Assembly: GCF_000337815.1 (NCBI RefSeq)
Contig: NZ_AOLN01000010.1
Location: 62,001 to 126,000, forward strand
Direction of reading: 5' to 3'
DNA length: 64,000 bases
Origin: Haloferax mucosum ATCC BAA-1512
GTDB lineage: Archaea > Halobacteriota > Halobacteria > Halobacteriales > Haloferacaceae
Part shown: positions 26,288 through 35,118 of the stretch, piece by piece
Layout of the letters: each line of letters starts with the position of its first letter
Numbering within the stretch: position 1 is the first letter of the stretch
Program-made: the position numbers and the translations under genes
The notes under the pieces: generated by a model
What the model saw: only the letters and a program-made list of their open reading frames with translations
What the model was told of the DNA's origin: nothing
The model's database searches: none

Positions 26288-26296
26288 CATAAATCA
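26288..26296 (-). promoter_or_regulatory. TATA box of the cbiMNQO operon
   Basis: On the minus strand GATTTATGG lies about 40 nt before the cbiM ATG at 26248, giving a short leader. The candidate operator at 26307-26323 is immediately upstream. Confidence 0.4.
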
Positions 26297-26306
26297 ATTA
26301 TGATTG

Positions 26307-26323
26307 CCTTACAGCAAGTGAGG
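26307..26323. promoter_or_regulatory. Candidate cobalamin-cluster operator, copy 1
   Basis: CCTTACA-GCA-AGTGAGG is a near-palindrome (ideal CCTTACT-N3-AGTAAGG). It lies between the divergent cbiM and cbiT promoters. A close copy at 37304-37320 sits in the other divergent cobalamin promoter; 11 of 17 positions are identical, including CCTTAC and the AGT..GG part. A metal- or corrinoid-responsive repressor site is inferred. Confidence 0.5.
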
Positions 26324-26413
26324 TTTAATAATCTCGTCAGCGATGTTGCGAAAACTCGATTGGAGTACTACAAGCATAATTGTTTTCAGAACCCGGTAGA
26401 ATGATTGACTCGA

Positions 26414-30329: not shown

Positions 30330-31370
30330 ATGAGCGACAGCAACACAGCATCCGAATCGAAGTGCGGCGGAACGACGACGGAATCGAAGACGACCGACTC
30401 GGCCGAGGCGTCGGCCTCGAAGTGCGGCGGCAAGTCGGCTGAGAAATCGACGGACTCGTCCGAATCCTCGTCTTCAAAGTGTGGCGGGTCCTCGGAATCG
30501 ACGGACTCCACGTCGAGTTCGAGTTCCAAATGCGGCGGGTCGAAAAAGAAACAGACCGACGAGAAGGTCGAAGCGACAATCGACGACTTCGACGGCGAAC
30601 CCGGCCAACTCGTCGCGGTCGGTCTCGGTCCCGGCCGTGCGAGTGAGATGACGACGCTGGCGAAAGAGACGCTCCGAGACGCAGAACACATCGTCGGCTA
30701 CACCACCTACATCGAACTCCTCCCCGACGACATCGTCGAAGGCGCGGAGGACATCTACTCGACGCCGATGTGCGGCGAAGTCTCCCGAACGGAAGAAGCA
30801 ATCGACCGAACGCTCGCCGGCAACGACGTGGCAATCGTCGGGAGCGGCGACCCGAACGTCTACGCGCTGGCCGGTCTCGCACTCGAAATCCTCGAATCGA
30901 AGGGCGCGACCGCGAGCATGGTCGATTTCGACGTTGTCGCCGGCGTCCCCGCCGCACAGTCCTGTGCGGCCCGGCTGGGTGCGCCGCTCGTGAACGACAC
31001 GGTTACCATCAGCCTCTCTGACCACCTGACCTCGATGCCGACCATCGAGTCGCGTCTGCACTCGGCCGCGAAAGAGGGCTTCACCATCGTCATCTACAAC
31101 CCGTGGAGTCGCAAGCGGCGGTCGAACTACGAGAAGTGTTGCGAGATTCTGCTCGAACACCGCGACCCCGAGACGCCGGTCGGAATCGTCCACGGCGCGG
31201 GCCGCGACGACGAGGAAGTCGAAATCGTCGAACTGCAAGACCTCCCCGAACTCGGCGAGACCGACCTCGTGGACATGACGACGACGCTACTCGTCGGCAA
31301 CGAGGAGACGTACGTCTGGGACGACCGGATGGTGACGCCCCGCGGCTACGAGCAGAAATACGAGTACTGA
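30330..31370 (+). CDS. cbiH: CbiH-type C17-methyltransferase, second copy, with Cys-Gly-Gly repeat extension
   Basis: 346 aa. The methylase begins about residue 92 (QLVAVGLGPGRASEMTTLAK) and has IVGSGDPNVYALAGLALEIL, VAGVPAAQSCAARLGAPLVN and TISLSDHLTS, all CbiH-like. The first ~80 residues are a low-complexity Ser/Thr/Glu/Lys segment with four S/S-K-C-G-G units (Cys at 12, 32, 51 and 68). Evenly spaced single cysteines in a flexible tail suggest a metal-binding or tethering function. Whether both CbiH copies have the same reaction is unknown; one could supply a missing step of the pathway. Confidence 0.88.
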   Translation: MSDSNTASESKCGGTTTESKTTDSAEASASKCGGKSAEKSTDSSESSSSKCGGSSESTDSTSSSSSKCGGSKKKQTDEKVEATIDDFDGEPGQLVAVGLGPGRASEMTTLAKETLRDAEHIVGYTTYIELLPDDIVEGAEDIYSTPMCGEVSRTEEAIDRTLAGNDVAIVGSGDPNVYALAGLALEILESKGATASMVDFDVVAGVPAAQSCAARLGAPLVNDTVTISLSDHLTSMPTIESRLHSAAKEGFTIVIYNPWSRKRRSNYEKCCEILLEHRDPETPVGIVHGAGRDDEEVEIVELQDLPELGETDLVDMTTTLLVGNEETYVWDDRMVTPRGYEQKYEY

Positions 31371-31371
31371 G

Positions 31372-31623
31372 ATGTTCGAAATCGAAATCGACCGAACGGC
31401 CTGCGACGGCATCTTCGCGTGTCTCACCCGCGATAGCCGATTCGTCGAAGACGACGCGGGACTCGCCACAATCGACGTGGACGCAGAGGGCGTAGTCGAA
31501 GTCGTCCGCGACGACGAGCGAAACAGCGTCGTTGCGACCGTCGAAGGCGACATCGAAGACGCGACCCTCGCGGCGCGAGCGTGCCCACCAGACGCGATTA
31601 CCGTCCGGGAGGTGGACGCGTGA
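31372..31623 (+). CDS. Small ferredoxin-like protein
   Basis: 83 aa. Starts FEIEIDRTACDGIFACLTRD and ends AARACPPDAITVREV; three cysteines (about 11, 17 and 70) in the spacing of a monocluster, probably [3Fe-4S], ferredoxin. The last Cys is followed by PP, as is usual in the family. It lies within the corrin operon, one nt after cbiH and overlapping the next gene by GTGA. It may supply electrons for ring contraction or cobalt reduction; this is inference. Confidence 0.75.
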   Translation: MFEIEIDRTACDGIFACLTRDSRFVEDDAGLATIDVDAEGVVEVVRDDERNSVVATVEGDIEDATLAARACPPDAITVREVDA

Positions 31624-32288
31624 GCACTCCCGACCTCGGGCCTGCTGACGACCTCCTGAAGAGTACGCCCGAGACGGCCTATCTGTGGGGCCACGTCGCC
31701 GGAAGCGACGACATCGAATCCGACGTGGCGACGGTCCACACGAGCGACGAAACCTGTGCCGACCGAATCGCAACAATCGCGGGCGGCGGCGATATCGACC
31801 AGCAGGTGACAGAACGCCCTTACGCGCACAACACCTCAGTCACCCGGACGAAAGACGAGTACCTCGTGACAATCGAAGGCGACGTGGTCGCAAGCGCGAC
31901 CGGCGCGTTCGGTCTCCCAGTCGGCGACGACGCCGGTGGCTACCGATTCGACGTGTTCGACGACTCCCGGAAGCAACTCCTTCGGGGCCTGCTCGAAAGT
32001 TGCGGGACGGTCTGTTTCAAATCCGCCAGCGGGACAGTCGGTATCTCGTTCGTCCACGACGACCGGGCGTTGCTGGAGCGAATCGACCGCCTACTCGACA
32101 CCTGTCCAGTAGACGCGCCGACCGGCGACGTTCAAGAGACCTCCTCGGGCGGCTACTGGTTCGGCATCGACGACGCCGCCGCGGCCCCGTTCGGGCGGTG
32201 GGTCTACGACGGAAGCGACGAGACCCACCTGTTCGCGCCGACGCGGCGTCGAAAACTGACCCGAAGCCTCGAACAGGTAGAACACTGA
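31620..32288 (+). CDS. Cobalamin-operon protein resembling a catalytically dead LAGLIDADG domain
   Basis: 222 aa, GTG start. It contains two halves that look like LAGLIDADG motifs: LWGHVAGSDDI (22-32) followed by TVHTSDETCADRIATIAGG, and LRGLLESCGTV (121-131) followed by GISFVHDDRALLERIDRLL. In each half the position of the metal-binding acid is replaced (Ser and Cys), so nuclease activity is unlikely. I infer a domesticated homing-endonuclease fold working in corrin synthesis or its regulation. It is coupled to the ferredoxin gene upstream and to cbiX downstream (TGATG). Confidence 0.7.
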   Translation: MSTPDLGPADDLLKSTPETAYLWGHVAGSDDIESDVATVHTSDETCADRIATIAGGGDIDQQVTERPYAHNTSVTRTKDEYLVTIEGDVVASATGAFGLPVGDDAGGYRFDVFDDSRKQLLRGLLESCGTVCFKSASGTVGISFVHDDRALLERIDRLLDTCPVDAPTGDVQETSSGGYWFGIDDAAAAPFGRWVYDGSDETHLFAPTRRRKLTRSLEQVEH

Positions 32289-33502
32289 TGCACACCGAGC
32301 AGACATCACTCGACGACGACGCGGTACTCCTCGTGGGACACGGGTCCCGCAGAGAGAAATCGAACGAACAGGTTCGGACGCTCGCCTCCAAACTCGAACG
32401 CCACCTTTCGCTCCCCGTTGACGCGGCGTACATCGAACTCGCCGAACCGTCGATAGCGGATGCCATCGAGACGCTGGCACCGACCTGTCGGAGTCTGACC
32501 GTCGTTCCGTTGTCGCTTTTCGCCGCCAGCCACGTCAAAAACGACGTGCCGATGGCGGTCCAAGTCGCCCGAACGAAACACGACGACATGACGTTCCACT
32601 TCGGGTCGCACCTCGGCATCCATCCGTCGATTGTTGACCTGCTCGACGAACGCGTTCGCGGTGTCGAAGCCGACCTCGGTGTCGAACGAGGCGACGACGA
32701 CGTTGCGGTCGTGCTCTGTGCGCGCGGGTCGAGCGACCCGGATTCGAACGGCGACGTGCACAAACTCGCGCGCCTGTTGTACGAGGGCCGCGAGTTCACG
32801 CGCGTCGAATCGACGTTCATCGGCGTGACCTCGCCCCGCCTCGAAGAGACGCTTCACACCGTCGCAAAAGACCGTCCCGACGCGGTCGTCGTCCTCCCGT
32901 ACATGCTCGGCGACGGCGTGTTGACCCAGCGAATCATCGACAAGACGGAGACCTTCGGTGGCGAGTACCCGTACGTCACTGCCGGCGCGTCCGGGCCGCT
33001 CGGCACCGACGACCGACTCGTTGACGTGCTCGCGGACCGCTGTCGGGAAGCGCGCTCCGGAAGCGTCGAAATGTCGTGTGACACCTGCAAGTACAAAGTC
33101 GAACTGTCGGGCTACGAAGACGACCACGGCGGGGCGCGTGCGATGCTTCGCTCGCTGGTCCATCAGGCCGAACACGCCGACCGAAGCGACGTCGGCGACG
33201 ACCCGCACGTCCACGACGCACCCGGCAAGCACGTCGCCGTCTGTACGAACCAGACGTGCGCCGCGAGCGGCGCGGCGACGGTTCTCGAACAACTCAGACA
33301 ACAGGCGCGGAAGTCGGACGACTGCGACGTCCACGTCTCGCGTAGTTCCTGTCTCGGGCAGTGTGGCGACGGGCCAATCGTCGCCGTCTACCCGGATAGC
33401 ATCTGGTACGGCGGCGTGACGCCCGACGACACGGAACGCATCGTTTCGTCCCATCTCGAACGGGACCGCATCGTCTCCGACCTCGTACACCAATCACTCT
33501 AA
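32288..33502 (+). CDS. cbiX: Sirohydrochlorin cobaltochelatase CbiX fused to a [2Fe-2S] thioredoxin-like domain
   Basis: 404 aa. The N-terminal ~260 residues are two CbiX halves: VLLVGHGSRREKSNEQ with VVPLSLFAASHVKND in the first (both catalytic His present), and VVLCARGSSDPDSNG with VVVLPYMLGDGVLT in the second (no His). It inserts Co2+ into sirohydrochlorin at the start of the anaerobic-type route. The C-terminal ~90 residues carry four Cys (C319, C324, C355, C359; CTNQTC and CLGQC), the pattern of a thioredoxin-like 2Fe-2S ferredoxin. A further pair CDTCKYK lies between. The long, Fe-S-bearing form is known in haloarchaea. Confidence 0.9.
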   Translation: MHTEQTSLDDDAVLLVGHGSRREKSNEQVRTLASKLERHLSLPVDAAYIELAEPSIADAIETLAPTCRSLTVVPLSLFAASHVKNDVPMAVQVARTKHDDMTFHFGSHLGIHPSIVDLLDERVRGVEADLGVERGDDDVAVVLCARGSSDPDSNGDVHKLARLLYEGREFTRVESTFIGVTSPRLEETLHTVAKDRPDAVVVLPYMLGDGVLTQRIIDKTETFGGEYPYVTAGASGPLGTDDRLVDVLADRCREARSGSVEMSCDTCKYKVELSGYEDDHGGARAMLRSLVHQAEHADRSDVGDDPHVHDAPGKHVAVCTNQTCAASGAATVLEQLRQQARKSDDCDVHVSRSSCLGQCGDGPIVAVYPDSIWYGGVTPDDTERIVSSHLERDRIVSDLVHQSL

Positions 33503-33504
33503 CA

Positions 33505-33882
33505 ATGGCATGCGCTGAACTCGAAGCACTCCGACTCGCACTGATGAACATCACCGGCACCACAGACGAGAGCGTCAAACGACACGCCGAAGCCGAACTC
33601 GAAGGCTATCTCGACGAACCCGGCCCGATTCAGGCGCTCGCAAACGCCGCGACCCTCGACGAAGCCCAACGACACCTCGACGCCGCGCTCGTCGACCTCG
33701 AAAAAGAGGCGATGGAGACGCCCAGAGACGACCCGCAGTCGGGCTACCTCCGCGGTCGCGTCGTCGCCGTTCGAGACGCCGAGCGGTCGCTTCGTCGACT
33801 CCGCGACCAGACTGACTCGTTCCTCGACGACCTCGGTGAGGCTCACCACGACCTCCACGACACCTTCCCAGTCGAGGAGTAA
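33505..33882 (+). CDS. DUF3209 protein of the cobalamin operon
   Basis: 125-aa helical, acidic protein (MACAELEALRLALMNITGTT...). It belongs to DUF3209, a family found beside corrin genes in haloarchaea; no activity is known. Helices with repeated Glu/Asp-Arg pairs (VAVRDAERSLRRLRDQTDSF) suggest a helical bundle. The His-rich end (GEAHHDLHDTF) could bind metal. It sits 2 nt after cbiX. Confidence 0.75.
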   Translation: MACAELEALRLALMNITGTTDESVKRHAEAELEGYLDEPGPIQALANAATLDEAQRHLDAALVDLEKEAMETPRDDPQSGYLRGRVVAVRDAERSLRRLRDQTDSFLDDLGEAHHDLHDTFPVEE

Positions 33883-33888
33883 CCCGCG

Positions 33889-35118
33889 ATGGACGCCTTC
33901 ACGAACCGACGCGACTTGGGTTCTCTCGACCCCGCCGCGAGCAGACACAACTGGGCGCGGTCGGCAGTTGCCGTCTCGGGCGAACAGGTGTTCGTCGGAA
34001 CGGCCGACGGGCGAATTTCGGGATTCGATTCGTCCCTCGAAGACGGCGAGCGCTGGTCGGTGCGCGGCGAGCACCGAATCGTCTCGATGGCCGCGGGCGA
34101 CGACTGTCTCGTCGTCGGCGAGCGCGGCGGCGACGGACGCCTCCGCGTGCTGGACCCGGAAACCGGCACCCTACGCTGGGAGTACGCGACGACGGACGAC
34201 ATCGGCACCGCGACGAGAGAGTCGTTGTTCTTCCTGCCGTACCTCGTCGACGTCGCGGTTACGGACGACCGCGTCGTCGCCATCGCCAGACGCTACGAAC
34301 GAGACAGCGACGAGCGGGTTTGGACGAGCGTCGTCTACGGCTTCGACCACGATGGTGAAGTCCGGTGGCGCTACCGAACCGCCGCCTCACCAATCGCGTT
34401 GGACGCCGAACGGGATCGCGTCGCGGTCGCGTACAATCGCTGTCCCGAGGCGGACCAACACGGACTCGTCGTACTCGACGGCGAAACCGGCGCGTCGCGC
34501 GCGACGTGGGACCCCGAAATCGACGCCGAACGCCGCGTCGGCGACGTCGCGTTCGCAGGCGACGACATCGCCGTCGCCTGTCACGGCGACAAGCGCGGCT
34601 ATCTACTCGACGGCGACGGCCGCGAGCGATGGTCGGTCGCCCTTGCGACGAAACAGTCACTCGGCGACGAGACGGTGTACGCCTACCCGAATCACGTCTG
34701 CGTCGCAGACGGGACCGTCGTCTTCGTGACCGGCAACACGTTCGCGGAATCGACCCGCGACCCGGACGCCCGACACCCGAATGAACACACCGTCTTCGCA
34801 GTCGAAGACGGCGACCCGAAGTGGACGTACGACTCCGGCGGGTTCGCTCGCGGCGTCGAATCGGTCGGCGAGCGCGTCGTCGTCCCGTCGGCGCAGAACT
34901 TCCGGCTCCGAAGCGCCGACACCCACTGCGTCCGCGTCTTCGACGCCGCTGACGGCCACGTCGAGACAACCGAGTGTTCGGGTATTCCGACTGCAATCGC
35001 CGTCGGTGACGACGTACTGGCGATGGTCGAAGAGCCGGTCGAATACCACGACGAAGGCGTCACGCACGGGGCGTATAGGCTCCACGTGCAACCGGCGGCG
35101 GAATCCCGTCGAAACTAG
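33889..35118 (+). CDS. PQQ-repeat beta-propeller protein in the cobalamin operon
   Basis: 409-aa cytosolic propeller. Blades are visible as repeated V.G...G.....D...G...W units: VFVGTADGRISGFDSS, RLRVLDPETGTLRWEYAT, VVYGFDHDGEVRWRYRT, GLVVLDGETGASRATWD, YLLDGDGRERWSVAL, VFAVEDGDPKWTYDS. No signal peptide and no dehydrogenase active-site motif. Last gene of the corrin operon. Its TAG and that of the convergent chlID gene overlap by 3 nt. A scaffold or sensor function for the pathway is inferred from position only. Confidence 0.78.
   Translation: MDAFTNRRDLGSLDPAASRHNWARSAVAVSGEQVFVGTADGRISGFDSSLEDGERWSVRGEHRIVSMAAGDDCLVVGERGGDGRLRVLDPETGTLRWEYATTDDIGTATRESLFFLPYLVDVAVTDDRVVAIARRYERDSDERVWTSVVYGFDHDGEVRWRYRTAASPIALDAERDRVAVAYNRCPEADQHGLVVLDGETGASRATWDPEIDAERRVGDVAFAGDDIAVACHGDKRGYLLDGDGRERWSVALATKQSLGDETVYAYPNHVCVADGTVVFVTGNTFAESTRDPDARHPNEHTVFAVEDGDPKWTYDSGGFARGVESVGERVVVPSAQNFRLRSADTHCVRVFDAADGHVETTECSGIPTAIAVGDDVLAMVEEPVEYHDEGVTHGAYRLHVQPAAESRRN

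Follow-up and report, generated by a model that had tools for sequence, protein, structure and literature searches.

The gene that lies between a ferredoxin gene and the gene for the cobaltochelatase CbiX in the B12 operon of Haloferax mucosum encodes a domesticated LAGLIDADG protein without the standard catalytic acid pair. The protein, here termed LAG, has 222 residues and is encoded in the middle of the analysed window, a stretch of 64,000 nucleotides (Table 1). We tentatively suggest that this former LAGLIDADG nuclease may have turned into a cobalt-handling accessory of CbiX. The haloarchaeal B12 cluster includes four unassigned genes, and one of them can now be given a fold, a set of invariant residues and a testable role.

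Table 1. Positions in the window of LAG, its motif helices, neighbouring genes and the promoter element.
Feature	Position	Strand	Remarks
Promoter element, weaker copy of ACAANCANAATTGTTTT	26291-26307	-	before cbiM
Promoter element ACAANCANAATTGTTTT	26370-26386	+	cbi operon head; conserved across many genera
Ferredoxin, single-cluster (Fer4_15)	31372-31623	+	translationally coupled to LAG
LAG, 222-aa LAGLIDADG-fold protein	31620-32288	+	GTG start, TGA stop; from reading frame, model and fold search
First LAGLIDADG helix, residues 17-29	31668-31706	+	helix in the model, ending at the first acid position (residue 29, Ser here)
Second LAGLIDADG helix, residues 110-128, with strand to 132	31947-32015	+	invariant E126, C128, C132
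CbiX cobaltochelatase	32288-33502	+	MXCXXC motif, C-terminal thioredoxin-like [2Fe-2S] domain; ATG overlaps LAG stop
DUF3209 and PQQ-like beta-propeller protein	33505-35118		after CbiX

The original prediction described two LAGLIDADG-like helices with matching strand and helix patterns, and this is borne out by an AlphaFold2 model of LAG (pLDDT 91.7, pTM 0.89). In the model each motif stretch forms the end of a helix and is followed by strands and a helix, and the whole has the two-fold alpha-beta-beta-alpha-beta-beta-alpha architecture of LAGLIDADG homing endonucleases. The fold comparison that had been proposed as a check led to LAGLIDADG nucleases and not to an unrelated fold. The top Foldseek match was I-Tsp061I (E 1.1e-6), which VIA-align superimposed on the model with a Z score of 15.6 and an rmsd of 3.4 over 182 residues. 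I-DmoI, like I-Tsp061I an archaeal monomeric homing endonuclease, also resembles LAG over most of its length (Z 15.0). LAG differs from both in having Cys at the second acid position in all relatives and in residing in a metabolic operon instead of an intron or intein, and it is only 14-17% identical to them. PDB sequence searches with the protein and with the LAG alignment as queries gave chance matches only, and the Pfam scores of the window protein were below the cut-offs (Hom_end 0.018, LAGLIDADG_3 0.083). LAGLIDADG_3 was matched at E<=1 by 40 of 56 aligned members (best E 3.4e-5), the 56 being the window protein and 55 relatives picked from 80 loci that had been kept from 166 candidates.

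By motif alignment with I-DmoI, we take position 29 of LAG to be that of the first catalytic acid. Among the 56 aligned members it is occupied by Asp in 28, Ser in 22, Asn in four and Gly in two, and the second acid site, position 128, is Cys in every one of them; C132 and H70 are likewise invariant. The claim that both catalytic acids are replaced, by Ser and Cys, is therefore correct for the second site, but Ser at the first site is not a fixed feature. An acidic residue ending both motif helices, as in LAGLIDADG homing endonucleases, is not found in LAG. In a set of 15 sequences selected so as to cover divergent members as well (35-60% identical to the window protein), the residues H70, R122, E126, C128, C132, S175, S176, W180, R209 and K212 do not vary. 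Entropy is low in strands 129-134, 139-146 and 179-183, in loops 68-74 and 173-178, and in helix 17-29. In comparisons with five relatives, LAG had a dN/dS of 0.16-0.33 and the ferredoxin one of 0.19-0.33; the values of cbiX and cbiG were 0.13-0.18 and 0.06-0.16. In one genome (G019, locus L021), LAG carries a long SNAT-repeat insertion and is not preceded by a ferredoxin.

The operon in the window has the order cbiT, cbiL, cbiF, cbiG, cbiH1, cbiH2, ferredoxin, LAG, cbiX, DUF3209 and PQQ-like protein, where the names cbiF, cbiH1, cbiH2 and cbiL were taken from the published H. volcanii gene order. The translational coupling of LAG on both sides, noticed originally, is real: the GTG (31620-31622) overlaps the ferredoxin stop codon (31621-31623) with a 4-nt overlap of the genes, and the LAG stop codon (32286-32288) overlaps the ATG of CbiX (32288-32290). 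In all 80 loci LAG is flanked by the ferredoxin and CbiX on the same strand. In 70/80 loci the nearest potential LAG start is at -4 relative to the ferredoxin stop, and CbiX starts at -4 from the LAG stop in 45/80 and at -1 in 7/80. The ferredoxin has just three conserved Cys residues (11, 17 and 71, in 81/81 sequences), which leaves room for an open iron site or for a 3Fe-4S cluster. The N-terminal tail of CbiH2 (30330-30560) looks disordered and carries four SKCGG repeats; at least two CGx repeats are present in 73 of the 79 LAG-containing loci scored, and in none of four operons of the type without LAG that were checked.

Conservation and gene neighbourhood thus confirm the near-fixed membership of LAG in the haloarchaeal B12 operon. 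Profile searches of 342 genomes of the order found LAG in 181 and CbiG in 186. Both were present in 180 genomes, only CbiG in six (G043, G045, G068, G131, G269, G307), only LAG in one and neither in 155 (Fisher p ~4e-89, relatedness ignored), so that LAG is found in 180/186 CbiG-bearing genomes and in 1/156 others. The single exception, a weak match in G296 (E 2.1e-5), was not reproduced with alignment A2. Other weak matches (G052, G036 and G019:C3:864323) lie in frames that by eye are aminotransferase-like or acyl-CoA-synthetase-like, and were attributed to chance. A search of 294 genomes of the phylum gave 24 LAG matches, all from the same order or closer.

Five operons (L138, L139, L141, L142, L189) are of a second type. 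They have the order cbiT-L-F-G-H1-H2-X with cobN nearby, and LAG, the ferredoxin, DUF3209 and the PQQ-like gene found no match in any of them. In L138, L139, L141 and L142, CbiH2 is without the Cys-Gly repeats and CbiX has a His-rich tail instead of the [2Fe-2S] tail; the CbiX of L189 is also His-rich and has no [2Fe-2S] motif. In a tree of joined CbiT/L/F/G/H1/H2 alignments (midpoint root, no outgroup), the same four split from 67 other operons with support 0.976. Probably, five of the six operons without LAG represent one lineage.

A His-rich CbiX, with 12-16 His within 40 residues, is found in 6/6 operons without LAG, compared with 1/80 LAG-containing loci (L062) and 0/7 further ones. In G131, a 313-aa His-rich CbiX begins on the ferredoxin stop, in the slot usually taken by LAG, and is followed by the usual CbiX (L140:12902-13840). 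G044 has a LAG homologue (35% identical) outside the cbi operon (L180:8447-11369). It is placed between two cation-efflux proteins, matched by Pfam at E 5e-38 and 3e-46, and a rhodanese-like protein; the genes share a strand and are separated by short gaps. According to a review (PMC7689651), storage and delivery of metal may be the function of the His-rich tail of CbiX-L. It is because of the near mutual exclusion of LAG and His-rich CbiX, the slot in G131, the neighbourhood in G044 and this review that we consider cobalt handling for CbiX. Among the roles originally offered for LAG (regulator, chaperone or a missing pathway step), that of a chaperone has, in its metal-handling form, the most indirect support, from the first three of these observations.

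LAG could bind Co(II), or keep it usable, with the soft-metal ligands Cys128, Cys132 and perhaps His70, which are candidates surrounding the old active site and would have to be close to each other. In the cobalt-early route to B12 in haloarchaea, it would then hand Co(II) over to CbiX, and would do the job of the His-rich CbiX tail in the other type of operon. The invariance of the three residues and the position of CbiX next to LAG in all 80 loci would fit this idea. The more specific scenario, in which the old DNA-cutting metal site was rebuilt with cysteine and LAG carries Co(II) to CbiX in place of the His-rich tail, is more doubtful. A cobalt role also has to be reconciled with contrary points. 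Since five of the six operons without LAG are probably one lineage, there may have been only about two independent replacements between LAG and His-rich CbiX. L062 has both together, G044 is the only neighbourhood outside cbi operons, and LAG is coupled to the ferredoxin no less tightly than to CbiX. Should the metal role be true, the LAGLIDADG fold would have a function beyond nucleic acids, and a candidate cobalt-delivery protein would be at hand for the cobalt-early pathway. CbiX-L with its His-rich tail, and CobW, the cobalt chaperone of the cobalt-late route, would be the closest parallels in storing cobalt or supplying it to a B12 chelatase (PMC7689651), the role proposed here for LAG. 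LAG is structurally unrelated to either, and its own role is deduced.

The main competing explanation, which we regard as rather unlikely, is that LAG is a DNA- or RNA-binding regulator of B12 or metal genes in the manner of WhiA, maybe sensing metal or redox state with Cys128 and Cys132. The fold is one that binds nucleic acids, with WhiA among the matches (Z 14.3), the best conserved parts of LAG are the strands and loops that bear the DNA contacts in this fold, and the metal-transporter neighbourhood in G044 would suit a sensor as well. However, WhiA carries a C-terminal helix-turn-helix domain, and none was found in LAG: there was no Pfam match to a helix-turn-helix family, the LAGLIDADG fold fills the 222 residues (aligned 2-222), no extra domain was detected outside the core and the model has few additional helices. 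The median net charge of LAG is -18, which also argues against a regulator, although haloarchaeal proteins are generally acidic. DUF199/WhiA is nevertheless like LAG a LAGLIDADG-fold protein of a cellular gene that is no longer a nuclease, and its history from nuclease to cellular gene is described in the available part of PMC7282813.

A conserved promoter element was found. The 9-mer AATTGTTTT is present upstream of cbiT in 65/67 regions, within ACAANCANAATTGTTTT and about 34 nt ahead of the first potential start codon. With at most one mismatch, CAANCANAATTGTTTT occurs in 40/40 genomes with LAG, in 4/6 CbiG genomes without LAG and in 5/27 genomes that are without LAG and not listed with CbiG. 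By eye, and with up to three mismatches, the element can be recognized at the head of cbiT in all six CbiG genomes without LAG. Because it is kept without LAG, the element goes with the operon rather than with LAG, and it was ruled out as a LAG-dependent site. LAG could still act on another site. The CBL-box, a proposed archaeal B12 site, was not found in the literature searched. The ACAANCANAATTGTTTT element recurs before cbiH1 in split operons (e.g. L058, L061, L076), and a looser form is seen before cobN in Haloarcula loci.

It is less probable still that LAG works with the neighbouring ferredoxin as a redox partner, so that cobalt or corrin intermediates stay reduced while the cobalt-early pathway operates in air. 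Consistent with such a partnership, the two genes are coupled at -4 in 70/80 loci and are jointly missing from five operons, and LAG has two invariant Cys residues. COX1 is present in 15/15 LAG-containing genomes tested and absent from three (G043, G045, G068) of the five genomes missing both proteins. However, it is present in the other two (G269, G307), as well as in G131, and the proteins are separable, since G131 has the ferredoxin without LAG and G019 has LAG without the ferredoxin.

Catalysis by LAG of one of the two missing steps, the CbiD methylation or the CbiJ reduction, appears very improbable. The gaps themselves show in the profile searches, with CbiD in 0/342 genomes of the order and CbiJ over the cut-off in 0/342 (one match was below it, and none was in the genome of the window). 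The four unassigned genes were put forward as candidates for the missing steps in the available part of PMC8305020. However, five genomes whose cbi operon contains none of the four genes have no CbiD or CbiJ match above the cut-off either, hence the four genes are no general answer to the two gaps. The second operon type weakens the published idea, and a missing pathway step is disfavoured as the general role of LAG. Moreover, LAG did not match the CbiD (PF01888) and CbiJ (PF02571) profiles at E<=5, and a Pfam search found no SAM- or NAD(P)H-binding family in it.

It is hardly credible that LAG has remained a nuclease or mobile element, in spite of the LAGLIDADG fold and the Asp retained at the first site in 28/56 relatives, given Cys at the second acid position in 56/56, a constant location in 80/80 loci, where the gene is free-standing within the cbi operon and not part of an intron, intein or mobile element, a dN/dS of 0.16-0.33, and the absence of a match in 50,697 phage records.

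By gene order, LAG is likely the orthologue of HVO_B0055 of Haloferax volcanii, which occupies the same place between cbiX1 (B0054) and B0056/cbiH2 (B0057). HVO_B0055 is listed as having no assigned function in the available part of PMC8305020. The literature searched, partly judged by title and the start of the abstract, yielded nothing that ties LAGLIDADG to this gene. Eight plasmid records contain a copy of LAG, which is annotated as 'cobalamin biosynthesis protein' in five, as 'hypothetical protein' in two and is left unannotated in one.
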